Shown: one piece after another, positions 45,419 through 54,845 of the stretch
How positions within the stretch are numbered: the first letter of the stretch is position 1
Layout of the letters: each line of letters starts with the position of its first letter
DNA from: Deltaproteobacteria bacterium
GTDB taxonomy: Bacteria > Myxococcota > Myxococcia > Myxococcales > 40CM-4-68-19
Reading direction: 5' to 3'
Length of the DNA: 64,000 bases
NCBI GenBank assembly: GCA_005879315.1
Contig: VBLC01000046.1
Span: 129,424-193,423 of the forward strand
Program-made: the position numbers and the translations under genes
Notes under the pieces: generated by a model
What the model saw: the letters and a program-made list of their open reading frames with translations, nothing else
What the model was told of the DNA's origin: nothing
The model's database searches: none

Positions 45419-46132
45419 GTGGCCGAGAACATCTACAAGCTCTTGCAGGGCGCGGAGGAGACCGCCCAGACCTCGCAGGCGTCGATCTTCGGCGTCGAGG
45501 TGGCGCTGGTCACCAACGTCAACGATCCGCAGAAGGAGGGGCGGGTGAAGGTCTGCCTGCCGCGGCTGCCGGGAAAGCCCGAGAGCGGCTGGGCTCGCAT
45601 CGCCCAGCCCGCGGCAGGCCCCGGCCGCGGGATGTATTGGCTCCCGCTGGTCGGCGACGAAGTGCTCGTCGGCTTCGAGCGCGGCAGCGTCAGCCATCCC
45701 TACGTCATCGGCTGCCTGTGGAACGGCAAAGACAAGCCGATGAAGAACGCCTTCAATCCCGACAACACCACGCGGATGATCCAGACCGCGTCCGGTCACC
45801 TGGTCATCCTCGAGGACAAGGACGGCGAGGAGAAGATCATCATCGCCGACAGCTCGGGGAAGAGGACCGTCACCTTCGACGTGAAGGCGAAGAAGTTCAT
45901 CGTCGAGGCGAAAGAGGGAGACGTCGAGATCAGCGCAGAGAAGAAGATCGTGCTGCACTGCGAGGATCTCGAAATCAAGTCGACGAAGACGGGCAAGGTG
46001 GACATCGGCAGCACCTTCGATCTGGTGGTGTCCGACAAGGGCGCGCTCAAGGCCGGGCCGCAGATGAACCTCAAGGCCCAGCGCGTGGATCTGAACCCGA
46101 GCGGCGGGGCGGGATCGGGCGGTGACGACTGA
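45419..46132 (+). CDS. gpV/VgrG-OB-type spike protein (phage baseplate assembly protein V-like)
   Basis: GVEVALVTNVNDPQKEGRVKVCLPRLPGKPESGWARIAQPAAGPGRGMYWLPLVGDEVLVGFERGSVSHPYVIGCLWNGKDKP. Confidence 0.85.
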   Translation: MAENIYKLLQGAEETAQTSQASIFGVEVALVTNVNDPQKEGRVKVCLPRLPGKPESGWARIAQPAAGPGRGMYWLPLVGDEVLVGFERGSVSHPYVIGCLWNGKDKPMKNAFNPDNTTRMIQTASGHLVILEDKDGEEKIIIADSSGKRTVTFDVKAKKFIVEAKEGDVEISAEKKIVLHCEDLEIKSTKTGKVDIGSTFDLVVSDKGALKAGPQMNLKAQRVDLNPSGGAGSGGDD

Positions 46133-46695: not shown

Positions 46696-46810
46696 GGGGC
46701 AGCGCGAATAACACGCGGGCAGCGAGGCGGCAAGGCCGGGCGGCTGCCGGCCCGCCCGCTTTCCGGCCGTGCGCGGAACTGGTAAAGTTTCTCTCGGGGG
46801 AGCGCGAAGA

Positions 46811-47635
46811 ATGCCCGGCGCGGCGAGGCTCGGAGACAAGGCCCAGGTGCAGGCGGACGCCCACGGCTGCCCGGCCTGTCCTCATCCCGGGACGGGGCCC
46901 ATCGTGGTGGCGTCGACGAATGTCTTCGTCAACAGCAAAGGCGCGGCGCGCAAGAAAGACCTGGGCATCCATGCCGCCTGCTGCGGACCGAACCTCTACA
47001 ACATCAAGGAAGGTTCCCCCACCGTCTACGTCAACGGCCAGCCCATGGCCCGCATGCAGGATGGTACCAAGCACTGCGGCGGCGACGGCAACATTACCGA
47101 GGGGTCTCCCGACGTGCTCATCGACGACGGCGCCAGCGGCGCCGGCCTGGGCAGCTACCTCGTCAACGCCACCAAGATCCTGCTGGAGAAAACCGCGGCG
47201 ACCAAGGCGGCGCAGGCGAAAAAGATCTCCGACACGCACAAGGGCGGAGAGCCGGCGAAGGGCGGCGGCCGCGATCTCGCCAAGGACGAGAAGCCGGCGA
47301 AGAAGTCGGGCTCGATCACCGCCGCCAGGTGGGCCGTGCAGCGCGCCGCCAACGGACAGGAAGTCGAGCTGCACATCGAGACCCAGGACGGCAAGGGCCA
47401 GCTCACCATCGAGATCTGGGCGCAGAGCGCCGACCGCACGCAGGACAAGAAAGTGAAGAGCGAGAGCGCCTCGGCCGGCAAGAGAGTGAAGAAGAAGATC
47501 AAGCTGGCGATCCCGCCCGATGCTGCGGCGGGCAACGAATGCTCCTTCTACTTCGTCGTCAAGGACGAGGAGGGCGGCGAGCAGAGAAGCGATCCGCTCT
47601 TCGTCGACCGCGCGCCCTTCAAGTTCTCCGTCTGA
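46811..47635 (+). CDS. PAAR-like (DUF4150) protein with C-terminal beta-rich extension
   Basis: MPGAARLGDKAQVQADAHGCPACPHPGTGPIVVASTNVFVNSKGAARKKDLGIHAACCGPNLYNIKEGSPTVYVNGQPMARMQDGTKHCGGDGNITEGSPDVLID. Confidence 0.88.
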   Translation: MPGAARLGDKAQVQADAHGCPACPHPGTGPIVVASTNVFVNSKGAARKKDLGIHAACCGPNLYNIKEGSPTVYVNGQPMARMQDGTKHCGGDGNITEGSPDVLIDDGASGAGLGSYLVNATKILLEKTAATKAAQAKKISDTHKGGEPAKGGGRDLAKDEKPAKKSGSITAARWAVQRAANGQEVELHIETQDGKGQLTIEIWAQSADRTQDKKVKSESASAGKRVKKKIKLAIPPDAAAGNECSFYFVVKDEEGGEQRSDPLFVDRAPFKFSV

Positions 47636-49999: not shown

Positions 50000-50626
50000 G
50001 TGACGCCGCTTCTGCGATGGGACAGCGCGCTGCTCAAGCTCGAGCTTCTCGGCGACCCGCGTCTGGCCTGGCCCGGCGGAGTGACGCTCTCGGGCAACCA
50101 GGCGCTGGCGGCGGCGCAGTCTGCGCGCGGGCTCATCGCAGTCGCGCTGCGCGGGGTGGTGACGCACGAGATGCGCCAGGCGCTGCGGCTTTGGGGAGCG
50201 ACGCTGCTGCCTTCTGCGCCGCCCGCGCCGGATCTGTCGGCGGAGTTCGCGCGCACGCTCGGGACGGAGCTGGCCGCCGAGCTTTCGCAGGAGCCGCCGC
50301 TTCTCGTCGCTCCCGCAGGTGAAGCGTCGATGCTGCTCGGCGCGCTGCGCGCATTGCGGGCGAGATGGCCGAAAGTGCGCGGCGTGGCTTTGGTCGCTGG
50401 CGACGAAGAGCTCCCCGATCTGCCCCGCGAGGCTCCCGAGGGAGTGGACCGGCTCGCCATCTCCTGCGCTCAGGCTCGCGACGCTCGTGCGAGAGTCGCG
50501 CGCGAGCTGGGTCTTCTCGCCGGCCATGCCTCGGCTGCGGCAGCGGCGTATGCGCAAGAGCACGGGGGAGTCGCTCTCGTGACCGGACCGGGCGAGCGCG
50601 AGTTCTCCCTCGATCCTCCGAGATGA
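50000..50626 (+). CDS. PLP fold-type-II (cysteine synthase/threonine synthase-like) apparent pseudoenzyme lacking the catalytic-Lys segment
   Basis: TPLLRWDSALLKLE...LSGNQALAAAQSARGL...PLLVAPAGEASMLLGALRALRARWPKVRGVALVAG...ARELGLLAGHASAAAAAYAQ; no GS[VF]KDR motif; GTG start. Confidence 0.6.
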   Translation: MTPLLRWDSALLKLELLGDPRLAWPGGVTLSGNQALAAAQSARGLIAVALRGVVTHEMRQALRLWGATLLPSAPPAPDLSAEFARTLGTELAAELSQEPPLLVAPAGEASMLLGALRALRARWPKVRGVALVAGDEELPDLPREAPEGVDRLAISCAQARDARARVARELGLLAGHASAAAAAYAQEHGGVALVTGPGEREFSLDPPR

Positions 50627-51270
50627 AGACGATTCTCATTCTCGGTGTCGGTGGCCTGGGGTGCCCCGCTGCGCTCGCGCTGAAAGAGGCTGGTGTGCCG
50701 CTGCGGCTGGTATTGGTCGACCCCGATCGGGTCGAGCGCTCGAACCTGGCTCGCCAGATCCTCTTCAGCGAAGCGGACGTCGGCCAGCCCAAGGCGGAAG
50801 TCGCCGCGCGGAAGCTGGGAGCCGAGGCGCGCGTCCTGCGCTTCGAGCCGTCTACAGCGGCAGACTTGCTCCGGGGCTGCGACGTCCTCCTCGACGGCAC
50901 CGATGACTTCGCCACGCGCTTTCTCGCCAACGACGAGGCCGTCCGGCGCCGGATTCCATTGGTGCACGGCGCCGCGCTCGGCTGGACCGGCCAGCTTCTC
51001 ACTGTCCTCCCTGGCCGCAGCGCCTGCCTGCGCTGCTTCTTCGAAGGGCCGCCGGCGCCGGGTGCGCTGCCTACCTGCGCGGAGGCGGGCGTGCTCGCAC
51101 CTCTCTGTGGAGCCGTCGGCGCCGCCATGGCCGAGGCGGCCCTGGCTGTCCTCTCGGGCAAGGCGAAGGCGGGCGTCCTGCGCCGCTGGGATGCCCGGCG
51201 CGGAGCCGAGCGTCCGCTGGCGCTCCGCCGCGATCCGCTCTGCGCCGTCTGCGCAGGCGTGGCATCCTAG
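50623..51270 (+). CDS. ThiF/MoeB-type E1-like adenylyltransferase lacking the usual N-terminal helix
   Basis: MKTILILGVGGLGCPAALALKEAG...LVDPDRVERSNLARQILFSEADVGQPKAEVAARKL...DGTDDFATRFLAND; CLRC...CAVC zinc pairs. Confidence 0.9.
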   Translation: MKTILILGVGGLGCPAALALKEAGVPLRLVLVDPDRVERSNLARQILFSEADVGQPKAEVAARKLGAEARVLRFEPSTAADLLRGCDVLLDGTDDFATRFLANDEAVRRRIPLVHGAALGWTGQLLTVLPGRSACLRCFFEGPPAPGALPTCAEAGVLAPLCGAVGAAMAEAALAVLSGKAKAGVLRRWDARRGAERPLALRRDPLCAVCAGVAS

Positions 51271-51284
51271 AGGCGGAGGAACCG

Positions 51285-51566
51285 ATGCCCATCACCGTCA
51301 AGATTCCCGCGCCGCTCCGGTCGCTGACCGCCAACCAGAGCGAAGTGGCCGTCGAGAACGCGGCCACCGTCCAGGACGCCCTGGAAGAGCTGTCGCGCAA
51401 ATACCCGGGGCTCAAGGACCGCTTGCTCGACGAGAAGGGCGCCCTGCGCCGCTACGTGAACCTGTTCCGCAACGACGAGGACATCCGCCACGGCCGGGGG
51501 CTGGCCACGTCGCTCGCGGAGGGCGACAAGCTCACCATCGTGCCGGCCATCGCGGGCGGATGCTGA
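51285..51566 (+). CDS. MoaD/ThiS/CysO-family sulfur carrier protein ending in GGC
   Basis: MPITVKIPAPLRSLTANQSEVAVENAATVQDALEELSRKYPGLKDRLLDEKGALRRYVNLFRNDEDIRHGRGLATSLAEGDKLTIVPAIAGGC*. Confidence 0.93.
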   Translation: MPITVKIPAPLRSLTANQSEVAVENAATVQDALEELSRKYPGLKDRLLDEKGALRRYVNLFRNDEDIRHGRGLATSLAEGDKLTIVPAIAGGC

Positions 51567-51865
51567 GTCCCGAGCAGCAGGAGCGGTATTCGCGCCATCT
51601 CCTTCTCGACGGGCTCGATCAGGAGAAGCTGCTGGCCGCGGCCATCCGCGTCCGCGGCACGACCCGCGCGGCGCGCTGGGCCGCGAGGTATCTGGCGGCG
51701 AGCGGGGTGGGTCGGCTCATCGTCGACGAGCCCTCCTGGGAGCCTGAGTTGCGCGCGCTCGGCCCGTGGCTGCAGCTGGGCGGCGAGGCGCGCATGGAGA
51801 TCGCGCCGCAGGGCGAACCCTTCGACGGCGCCTGGGCTGCGCTGGAAGTCGTGCGTGGTCTTTGA
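51560..51865 (+). CDS. Truncated/degenerate MoeB-ThiF N-terminal-like protein
   Basis: MLSPEQQERYSRHLLLDGLDQEKLLAAAIRVRGTTRAARWAARYLAASGVGRLIVDE...: canonical E1 N-terminal motif, nucleotide-binding Gly loop lost; overlaps both neighbours. Confidence 0.65.
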   Translation: MLSPEQQERYSRHLLLDGLDQEKLLAAAIRVRGTTRAARWAARYLAASGVGRLIVDEPSWEPELRALGPWLQLGGEARMEIAPQGEPFDGAWAALEVVRGL

Positions 51866-52742
51866 TTCCCTCGCCGGCGCAGTCGGCAACACCCCTTTGG
51901 TGAGGCTGAGATCGCTCGAGCCCGGCGGGGTGGAGATCCACGCGAAATTGGAGTGGTTCAATCCCGGCGGCAGCGTGAAGGACCGCGCCGGACTGCAGAT
52001 CATCCGCGAGAGCGTCGAGAAGCTGCGCGGCCGGACGTTGATCGACTCGACCAGCGGCAACACCGGGATCGCCTACGCCTGGATCGGCGCGGCGCTGCGC
52101 GTGCCGGTGGCGCTGGTCATGCCGGAAAACGTGTCTGAAGCGCGCAAGCGCATCGTCCGCGCCTTTGGAGCGCAGGTCATCTATTCCGATCCGCTCGAGA
52201 CCTCCGACGGCGCCATCCGCCTGGCGCGCCAGCTGGTGCGCGAGCAACCCGATCGCTGGTTCTACGCCGATCAGTACTCCAACGAAGCGAACCCGCGCGC
52301 CCACGAGCTGGGCACGGCGCGAGAGATCTGGGACCAGACCGGCGGCCGGGTGACTCATGCAGTGGTCGGAATCGGCACCGGCGGCACCATCATGGGAGTC
52401 GGCCGCGGCCTGCGCGCGCGCAACCGGCGCGTGCAGATCGTCGCCGTCGAGCCGGCGGAAGCGCTTCACGGCCTGGAGGGCCTCAAGCACATGCCCTCGT
52501 CGATCGTGCCCGCCATCTACAAGGAGTCCGAGCTGGACCGGAAGCTCTCGATCCCCACCGATGCCGGCTGGGACATGGCCGAGCGGCTCGCGCGCGACGA
52601 GGGCCTCTTCGCCGGCCACAGCGCCGGCGCGGCCGCCTTCGGCGCACAGCTGGTGGCGCGCGAGATCGCCGAGCGAGGCGAGACCGGCGTCGTCGTCACG
52701 CTGTTCCCCGACCGCGCCGACCGTTACATTGCCCCGGCATGA
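51855..52742 (+). CDS. cysM: Cysteine synthase (CysK/CysM family)
   Basis: GNTPLVRLRSLEPGGVEIHAKLEWFNPGGSVKDRAGLQII...STSGNTGIAYAW...GIGTGGTIMGVGRGL. Confidence 0.95.
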   Translation: MVFDSLAGAVGNTPLVRLRSLEPGGVEIHAKLEWFNPGGSVKDRAGLQIIRESVEKLRGRTLIDSTSGNTGIAYAWIGAALRVPVALVMPENVSEARKRIVRAFGAQVIYSDPLETSDGAIRLARQLVREQPDRWFYADQYSNEANPRAHELGTAREIWDQTGGRVTHAVVGIGTGGTIMGVGRGLRARNRRVQIVAVEPAEALHGLEGLKHMPSSIVPAIYKESELDRKLSIPTDAGWDMAERLARDEGLFAGHSAGAAAFGAQLVAREIAERGETGVVVTLFPDRADRYIAPA

Positions 52743-53182
52743 TCGCGCCGGAGGTGCTCCGCCAGATCGCCGCGCACGCGCGCTCGACCTATCCGGCCGA
52801 GTGTTGTGGGCTCTTGTTGCGCGACCGGAGCGGCGCGATCTCTTTCCGGCCGATCCCCAACATCGCCGGCTCGCCGGAAGCGCGGCCCACCAGCTCGCGC
52901 ACCGCTCGCGACGGATATGTGATGGATCCGAAGGCGCTGCTTTCGGCAATGCAGGAAGGCGACCTTTGGGCCATCGTCCATAGCCATCCTGACGTCGGTG
53001 CCTATTTCTCTAAAGAAGACAGAGACATGGCGCTAGGCGATGGGGAGGAGCCACTCTGGCCCGGCGTGCGATATCTGGTCGTTTCGGTGCGCGCCGGGCG
53101 CGTGGAGGGCGCCCGCATCTATACCTGGGATAGTTCCCGCGGCGATTTTGCAGAAGAAGAAGTTATCGGAATAATCGAATAG
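52739..53182 (+). CDS. JAMM/MPN+ metalloprotease (Mec/Mov34-like)
   Basis: YPAECCGLLLRD ... AIVHSHPDVGAYFSKEDRDMA (HxH-x7-S-x2-D). Confidence 0.93.
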   Translation: MIAPEVLRQIAAHARSTYPAECCGLLLRDRSGAISFRPIPNIAGSPEARPTSSRTARDGYVMDPKALLSAMQEGDLWAIVHSHPDVGAYFSKEDRDMALGDGEEPLWPGVRYLVVSVRAGRVEGARIYTWDSSRGDFAEEEVIGIIE

Positions 53183-53234: not shown

Positions 53235-54026
53235 ATGAATCTCGGCAGCTCGTCGAATGGCTTCACCGTCTGGTTTACCGGAATGAGCGGCGCCGGCAAA
53301 TCGACGCTGGCGCAGGGTCTGGCTAACCGCCTGCGACGACTGGGGAAAATAGTCGACGTGATGGACGGCCCGGAAGTCGAGCAGATGCTCGGGGTCGGCA
53401 AGGGCGGCACCAAGGACGAGCGCAATGCCGAGGCGCGCAAGCTGGCCTGGGTTTGCAAGCTCGTGACGCGGGGCGGCGGAACCATTCTGCAATCGGCCAT
53501 CGAGAGTCCCTATCGCGAAACCCGCGACGAGGCGCGGCGGCAGATCGGCCGGTTCGCCGAGGTCTTCGTGGAGTGCCCCATCGAAACACTCATCCATCGC
53601 GACCGGAGCGGCCGCTACAAGCGCGCGCTCGCCGGCGAGTTGAAGACGCTCGTCGGCATCACCGAGCCTTACGAGCCGCCGGTGCATCCGGAGGTGGTCG
53701 TCGACACCAGCAAGCACTCGGTCGACGAAGCCGTCGAACACATCCTCGGCCAGCTCGTCGCGCAGCGGCTGCTCGATCCGGAGTTCGCCGCCTTGAAATC
53801 GCGGCCGCGCCTGCAGGCGCGCGCGCCGCTGCCCGAGCAGCCGAAGCCTGCGGCGGCGAAGGTGGAGAAGCCTCGTCTCGCCAAGGTGAAGAAGCTGCGG
53901 CAGCACAAGGCGGCCAAGCCTTCCAAGCCGGCCAAGGCGCAGCGGCGGGCGCCGGCGCGCAAGTCGGCGGCCGCGCGCACGGCGCGGGTGGGGCCACAGC
54001 GGCGCGGCGGAAAGCGCAAGCGCTGA
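53235..54026 (+). CDS. cysC: Adenylylsulfate kinase-like protein with Lys/Ala/Pro-rich C-terminal tail
   Basis: GFTVWFTGMSGAGKSTLAQGLANRLRRLG...ERNAEARKLAWVCKLVTRGGG...FVECPIETLIHRDRSGRYKRALAGELKTLVGITEPYEPP. Confidence 0.85.
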   Translation: MNLGSSSNGFTVWFTGMSGAGKSTLAQGLANRLRRLGKIVDVMDGPEVEQMLGVGKGGTKDERNAEARKLAWVCKLVTRGGGTILQSAIESPYRETRDEARRQIGRFAEVFVECPIETLIHRDRSGRYKRALAGELKTLVGITEPYEPPVHPEVVVDTSKHSVDEAVEHILGQLVAQRLLDPEFAALKSRPRLQARAPLPEQPKPAAAKVEKPRLAKVKKLRQHKAAKPSKPAKAQRRAPARKSAAARTARVGPQRRGGKRKR

Positions 54027-54029
54027 GCC

Positions 54030-54845
54030 ATGCTGCAGGCCAAGCGCGAGGCGGCGCTGCAGCGCCTGCGCGGGCTGGGCAGCGCGCTGGTGGCCTATTC
54101 GGGCGGCGTTGATTCGGCGCTGCTCCTGGCGCTGGCGCGCGAGGCCTTGGGAGCGCGAGCCGTCGCTTTCACCGCCGTTTCGCCGGCCGTGGCGCCCGAT
54201 GAGCTGGAGGGCGCGCGCTCTCTCGCGCAGGAGCTGGGCGTCGAGCACGTCGAGCGCGCCTCGGGTGAGCTGGAGGATCCCCACTACGCTCAAAATCCCG
54301 TCGACCGCTGCTACTTCTGCAAGACCGAGCTGTACCGGCTGGCCGAAGACGAGGCCCGGGCGCGCGGGCTCGCCGCCGTCGTGGCGGGGACGAATGCGGA
54401 TGAGCTCCTCGACTACCGCCCAGGCCTGCGCGCAGCGCATGAGCACCAGGTGGTCCAGCCGCTTGCCGAGGCGGGGTTGAGCAAGGCGGAGATCCGCCAG
54501 CTGAGCCGCGAGATGGGCCTGCCCACCTGGGACAAGCCGCAGCAGCCCTGCCTCTCCTCGCGCATTCCCTACGGCACGGAGGTGACGGCCGAGCGGCTCG
54601 CCCAGCTGGCGCGCAGCGAGATGGCCCTGCGCGCTCTCGGTCTGCGCGAATTTCGCGTCCGGTACCACGGCGACGTCGCCCGCATCGAGGTCGCCGAGGG
54701 AGAGCTGGACCAGCTCCTGCGCGTCCGCGACCAAATCGCGCGAGTTCTAAAAGAATCCGGCTTCAAGTTCGTCAGCCTCGACCTCGAGCCCTTCCGCAGC
54801 GGCCGGCTCAACGAAGCGGCTGGCCTCGTGCCTCTCCGCCGCTGA
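54030..54845 (+). CDS. larE: ATP-dependent sacrificial sulfur transferase LarE-like
   Basis: VAYSGGVDSALLLALAREALG PP-loop; DRCYFCKTELY; KPQQPCLSSRIPYGTEVT. Confidence 0.9.
   Translation: MLQAKREAALQRLRGLGSALVAYSGGVDSALLLALAREALGARAVAFTAVSPAVAPDELEGARSLAQELGVEHVERASGELEDPHYAQNPVDRCYFCKTELYRLAEDEARARGLAAVVAGTNADELLDYRPGLRAAHEHQVVQPLAEAGLSKAEIRQLSREMGLPTWDKPQQPCLSSRIPYGTEVTAERLAQLARSEMALRALGLREFRVRYHGDVARIEVAEGELDQLLRVRDQIARVLKESGFKFVSLDLEPFRSGRLNEAAGLVPLRR

Follow-up and report, generated by a model that had tools for sequence, protein, structure and literature searches.

We propose that an operon in the window (the whole stretch of DNA that was analysed, 64,000 nucleotides) resembles the CysO/CysM/Mec system and that its sulfur carrier is made as an inactive precursor, capped by one Cys after its Gly-Gly end. 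In the reading that we consider probable, the JAMM protease of the operon would both trim this cap and release cysteine, and the identity of the cap residue would be incidental. The gene order is pseudo-CysM, E1, carrier, pseudo-E1, CysM, JAMM, APS kinase and LarE, with the following features:

50000..50626, + strand: degenerate CysM paralogue (pseudo-CysM), 208 aa; Pfam PALP at residues 84-185 only, below cut-off
50623..51270, + strand: ThiF/MoeB-type E1, putative active half; Pfam ThiF 22-236/238, E 1.3e-53, and alignment
51285..51566, + strand: CysO-type sulfur carrier, precursor end GG-Cys; ThiS E 7e-17, best PDB match 3dwg_C
51560..51566, + strand: ATGCTGA, the pseudo-E1 start overlapping the carrier Cys codon (TGC) and stop (TGA); read from the sequence, same in G005 and G006
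51560..51865, + strand: pseudo-E1 with N-terminal MoeB arm (QQERYSRHLLL); NCBIfam MoeB-type matches, alignment and AlphaFold model
51855..52742, + strand: CysM/CysK-type cysteine synthase, GTG start; PALP E 7e-66, TIGR01138 cysM 316.7 bits, below the equivalog cut-off
52739..53182, + strand: JAMM (Prok-JAB) metalloprotease, Mec/QbsD-like; PF14464 E 1.5e-19, motif HSHPDVGAYFSKED
53235..54026, + strand: APS kinase (CysC) with long basic C-terminal tail; PF01583 E 2e-38
54030..54845, + strand: LarE-type ATP-dependent sulfur transferase; TIGR00268 E 1e-94, above cut-off

The pseudo-CysM stop and the E1 start share the bases ATGA (50623-50626), the CysM stop and the JAMM start overlap in the same way, and pseudo-E1 and CysM overlap by 11 bases. 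Pseudo-CysM, with its C-terminal motif GEREFSL, is kept in all genomes checked of the family to which the source genome belongs (f1), and its place is taken by a full-length second CysM in the f9 and Polyangiaceae loci. The APS kinase gene adjoining the JAMM gene is conserved, as is LarE as a member of the operon. Behind its kinase domain, the APS kinase has a Lys/Arg/Ala-rich C-terminal tail of ~80 residues. LarE, standing in a carrier/cysteine operon without a rhodanese, is a candidate sulfur donor; its cysteines lie in RCYFCK and QQPCLSS, which we take to be as expected for a cluster-bearing LarE. Elsewhere in the window, the products of 45419-46132 and 46769-47635 resemble, by eye, VgrG/baseplate-spike and PAAR-like proteins (contractile injection system).

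The carrier translation is 93 aa long and ends in LTIVPAIAGGC followed by the stop TGA, which confirms the Gly-Gly-Cys end described in the earlier note; the Cys, numbered 94 there, is residue 93. The Pfam ThiS match runs from residue 5 to residue 92, the second Gly, leaving Cys93 outside the family profile. M. tuberculosis CysO (3dwg_C) is the best PDB match (E 3.8e-19, residues 1-92), as expected of a CysO-like beta-grasp carrier of the CysO/CysM/Mec pathway, and the extra residue after GG is a feature of JAMM-matured capped carriers (QbsE, HcyS, PtmS2/PtmS3). The ending GGA-TGC-TGA is also found in G006 (carrier 84% identical) and G005 (80%), two species-level genomes of the same genus other than the source. 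An assembly or frame error at the carrier stop, which the earlier note had named as fatal to its reading, is scarcely credible: the source genome is a 125-contig draft, but the two other assemblies carry an identical GGATGCTGA junction with diverged flanks. When 195 genomes of the phylum were searched with the pattern P-[A/P]-x-[A/S]-G-G-C-stop, the only true GG-C carriers were those of the source genome, G005 and G006. The other four matches (G128, G129, G143 and G145; loci L060 and L063 inspected) are non-carriers.

The JAMM gene (52739-53182) lies, as had been noted before, in the same operon as the carrier, and a JAMM in the same operon or genome is a feature of capped-carrier systems. Its HSHPDVGAYFSKED motif is intact and has an upstream Glu, so that the E, HxH, S and D residues are all present; the HxH-x7-S-x2-D motif is retained in all JAMMs of f1. 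This is the sole Prok-JAB match in the source genome, which is 97.6% complete. The cysteine synthase is CysM-type by its PALP and cysM/cysKM matches, the cysM score being below the equivalog cut-off, and shares 40% sequence identity with an actinobacterial CysM, the top structural match of which is M. tuberculosis CysM. It has a Lys at what is presumably the position of M. tuberculosis CysM Arg220 and lacks the C-terminal extension, so that O-phosphoserine is only a possible substrate. No classical CysE scored above the cut-off in the source genome (best 90.7 vs 210.65 bits), a result that hints at the serine donor but does not decide it. The operon E1 has no rhodanese domain and thus differs from the MoeZR-type E1 of the CysO/CysM/Mec pathway.

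We suggest a plausible series of reactions for these proteins, whose cleavage steps, order and products we infer. A residue behind GG would prevent adenylation, and release of Cys from carrier-Cys is the known reaction of Mec. The GG-Cys precursor would be inactive until cleavage behind Gly92 by the JAMM takes off the Cys and leaves GG at the end. The free GG would then be adenylated by the E1 and its carboxylate converted to a thiocarboxylate, the sulfur of which CysM would transfer to activated serine to give carrier-Cys. Finally, the same JAMM would free the new cysteine, its first and last steps acting on the same chemical structure. That the encoded Gly-Gly-Cys end has the structure of CysO-Cys after the S-to-N shift, as the earlier note argued, is chemically right, and therefore the protease need not distinguish the two. 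By analogy with known systems, trimming of the cap by the operon JAMM is likely. The JAMM is also kept in G003, G008 and G010, whose carriers have no residue to trim behind GG, and therefore maturation is not its only job; what it does throughout is probably to release the product, and trimming would be an additional activity that is tolerated.

The carrier tails of related genomes bear on why the cap is a Cys. Within f1, the tail after GG is Cys in the source genome, G005 and G006, absent in G003, G008 and G010, Arg in G007 and G009, and Ser-Arg in G011, and the operon is kept in all of these genomes whatever the tail. In related families, the tails are Arg, Ala-Arg and Ala-Gly-Arg, and the JAMM is again present. 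In a tree built on four concatenated proteins, the three GG-Cys genomes cluster together next to G003, the support of the grouping being moderate (79); a single origin of GG-Cys in this genus would be the simplest reading. We reject the view that GG-C is conserved in the operon under selection, since the carrier of G003, from the same genus, has no tail after GG. The carriers of G053 and G047 run through GG into APELDAERIARWARHLLVPG, forming one chain with pseudo-E1 with the junction GG-APEL. Because the carrier of G053 is fused through its GG, a free GG can arise there only by cutting after GG, and a JAMM gene lies directly downstream of the fusion.

A source for the Cys codon is at hand in the 7-base overlap ATGCTGA. 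Its ATG starts pseudo-E1, the TG of this ATG and the next C form the Cys codon, and TGA stops the carrier; in this genus, the TGC codon is therefore forced by the overlapping ATG of the next gene. Together with the comparison of relatives, this arrangement suggests that the extra Cys may be a chance by-product of the gene overlap that the neighbouring protease removes. The cap would be Cys by way of the overlap between carrier stop and next start, and its identity would be incidental because the protease tolerates many tails. The overlap alone does not explain the excess of Cys caps in Actinomycetota.

There, we searched 397 genomes with the pattern hydrophobic-P-A-[VIM]-A-G-G-X-stop and checked the matches with the carrier profile. 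This gave 38 carriers (loci L076-L142) with a single residue after GG: Ala in 15, Arg in 8, Cys in 6, Ser in 4, Gln in 2, and Thr, Gly and Ile in 1 each. None of these 38 one-residue caps is Pro, Asp, Glu, Val, Leu or aromatic. Eight GG-V matches in G548 were left out as one identical repeated DNA segment, of which the copy L085 gave no carrier match, and the matches at L068, L071, L072 and L074 are non-carriers. The cap residues are far from random against base composition, and their spectrum would fit a protease that takes only certain residues, so that it may read out the specificity of this enzyme. Many of the capped carriers adjoin threonine synthase and have no JAMM gene within a few kb (L103, L119, L122, L123, L124, L130, L131 and L142). 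Threonine synthase was called by NCBIfam for L119, L122 and L123 and as a close homologue for L103, and the remaining partners by a weak match to the cysteine-synthase profile together with similarity to these four.

These data bear directly on the claim of the earlier note that the Cys is encoded as a mimic of the pathway product. According to this explanation, GG-Cys would have been selected for its identity with CysO-Cys, so that maturation of the carrier falls to the one protease that releases the product and is tied to cysteine supply. The two ends are indeed chemically identical, PtmS3 is a published GG-C carrier, and a number of actinobacterial carriers also have a Cys cap (6/38 observed vs ~1 expected from base composition, P ~5e-4, for related carriers without kinship correction). 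However, Ala and Arg caps are both commoner than Cys, close relatives that share this CysM and JAMM carry R, SR or no tail, and the overlap explains the codon in this genus. Nor is Cys enriched in CysM/JAMM operons: it caps 2/20 carriers beside CysM and/or JAMM vs 4/13 beside threonine synthase (Fisher P 0.18), and no tie of GG-C to cysteine operons was seen among the capped actinobacterial carriers. Product mimicry as the reason for the Cys is thus not supported, and we regard it as unlikely. Of the original proposal, maturation of the carrier by the JAMM stands, by inference and precedent; the choice of Cys as a product mimic does not, in view of relatives that have the same operon and JAMM and vary in their tails.

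The Cys might also stay on and work, its thiol accepting or relaying sulfur, or blocking the carrier as a redox switch. A terminal thiol beside GG could do such chemistry, but to our knowledge all characterised carriers (MoaD, ThiS and CysO) need a terminal GG for adenylation, and the nearest relatives have the same operon without Cys; we give this idea very little weight. Removal of the cap by another protease is as improbable as product mimicry. In that case, the JAMM would only release Cys or strip the carrier from proteins in the manner of a desampylase, which would fit its retention in the capless G003, G008 and G010 and the fact that the nearest NCBIfam model is desampylase, at a score below its cut-off. 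Against it, the fused carrier of G053 adjoins a JAMM, and in the known precedents, QbsD and PtmS1, the protease is a JAMM (PMC6006322).

The E1 appears to be divided. E1 (50623-51270) is 215 aa long and consists of a ThiF domain only. In the alignment, it keeps the Rossmann GVGGLG, NLARQ, GQPK, DGTD and the CxxC zinc cysteines; it starts at the Rossmann motif, and the N-terminal RYxR(Q/H) arm, present in cis in actinobacterial MoeZ, was found neither in E1 nor upstream. With its nucleotide-binding and catalytic residues and without the arm, it looks like the active subunit of a two-subunit E1. Pseudo-E1 has the arm and lacks the nucleotide-binding GxGxxG and NLxRQ as well as GQPK and DGTD, as would an inactive subunit that has lost its nucleotide site. 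It is conserved across f1, and its residues 1-67 give NCBIfam MoeB-type matches (E 8e-7 to 5e-6). E1-type enzymes are the best PDB matches of its AlphaFold model (pLDDT 85.7; the other four models were of poor quality), at a low TM-score of ~0.5. The arm is likewise split from E1 in f1, f4, f6, f9 and a Polyangiaceae locus (candidate split-E1 loci elsewhere: L056 8689-9816, L049 8909-9655, L048 8366-8872 and L005 6147-6563); in the f5 locus L045, a pattern search for the arm gave no match.

MoeB Arg14 and ThiF Arg11 are arginine fingers for the neighbouring subunit, reported to be non-essential, and in yeast Tcd1-Tcd2 the finger is supplied by the partner subunit (PMC13139853). Taking this finger in trans together with the division between arm and active site, a split, two-subunit E1 is plausible from the sequences. 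We extend this to a scheme that we hold tentatively, at a little less than an even chance, in which the armless active half would receive the arm (arginine finger) in trans from pseudo-E1. The carrier gene would sit between the two, fused in one genus to pseudo-E1 such that a JAMM cut after GG would free both, and the tails, GG-Cys included, would be scars of the junction. One active and one inactive adenylation subunit are likewise combined in eukaryotic SAE1/SAE2 and NAE1/NAE2 (PMC12355090) and in Tcd1-Tcd2, where the partner gives the finger as proposed here (PMC13139853). Compared with these, ours would be the E1 of a sulfur carrier in a bacterium, its inactive subunit would be very short, and the pairing is a proposal.

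The GG-Cys end alone is a further case of already known capped carriers, PtmS3 included. In HcyS/HcyD of Wolinella succinogenes, a one-residue Ala cap is likewise removed by a JAMM, but the pathway is that of homocysteine/methionine. The QbsE/PdtH-type cap is two residues, Cys-Phe. QbsE/QbsD and PdtH (thioquinolobactin, PDTC) also have extra residues after GG and a JAMM encoded in the cluster, QbsD being the protease that exposes the GG of capped carriers in the passage of PMC6006322 that cites it; they differ in serving a siderophore pathway and in having an E1 fused to rhodanese (PMC1779556). PtmS3 of Streptomyces platensis, published as a GG-Cys carrier beside PtmS2 (GG-Met-Val), is likewise of the ThiS/MoaD type with a single Cys after GG, and acts with the E1 PtmS4 in a pathway that requires the JAMM PtmS1, the loss of which abolishes the thioacid product (PMC6006322). 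However, the PtmS system serves thiocarboxylate natural products, and ptmS1 is reported to be clustered with ptmS2, not ptmS3; threonine synthase is the neighbour of the GG-C carriers in two large actinobacterial genomes (L103 and L123). A cut behind GG is required for MoaX of M. tuberculosis (PMC4326299). Operons with ThiS/MoaD, E1, JAB and cysteine synthase have been on record since 2006, along with the proposal that JAB releases ThiS/MoaD from fused proteins (PMC1779556). The CysO-CysM-Mec system of M. tuberculosis, the cycle of which is summarised in PMC3227635 (operon types 4c/4d, PMC1779556), likewise unites a CysO-like carrier, a cysteine synthase and a JAMM in one operon. There, however, CysO ends in GG without a cap and MoeZR is one chain with rhodanese, whereas the myxobacterial E1 is split and without rhodanese, and pseudo-CysM, APS kinase and LarE are added.

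The placing of the carrier between two parts of an apparently split E1, sometimes fused to one of them, is more novel than the GG-Cys cap. The cap drifts freely between sister species, and the resulting natural series (none, C, R, SR, AR, AGR and fusion) could be used for testing what JAMM proteases cut. If the split E1 is true, the two-chain layout of one active and one inactive subunit, known from the SUMO and NEDD8 activators, would also have arisen in a bacterial sulfur pathway.
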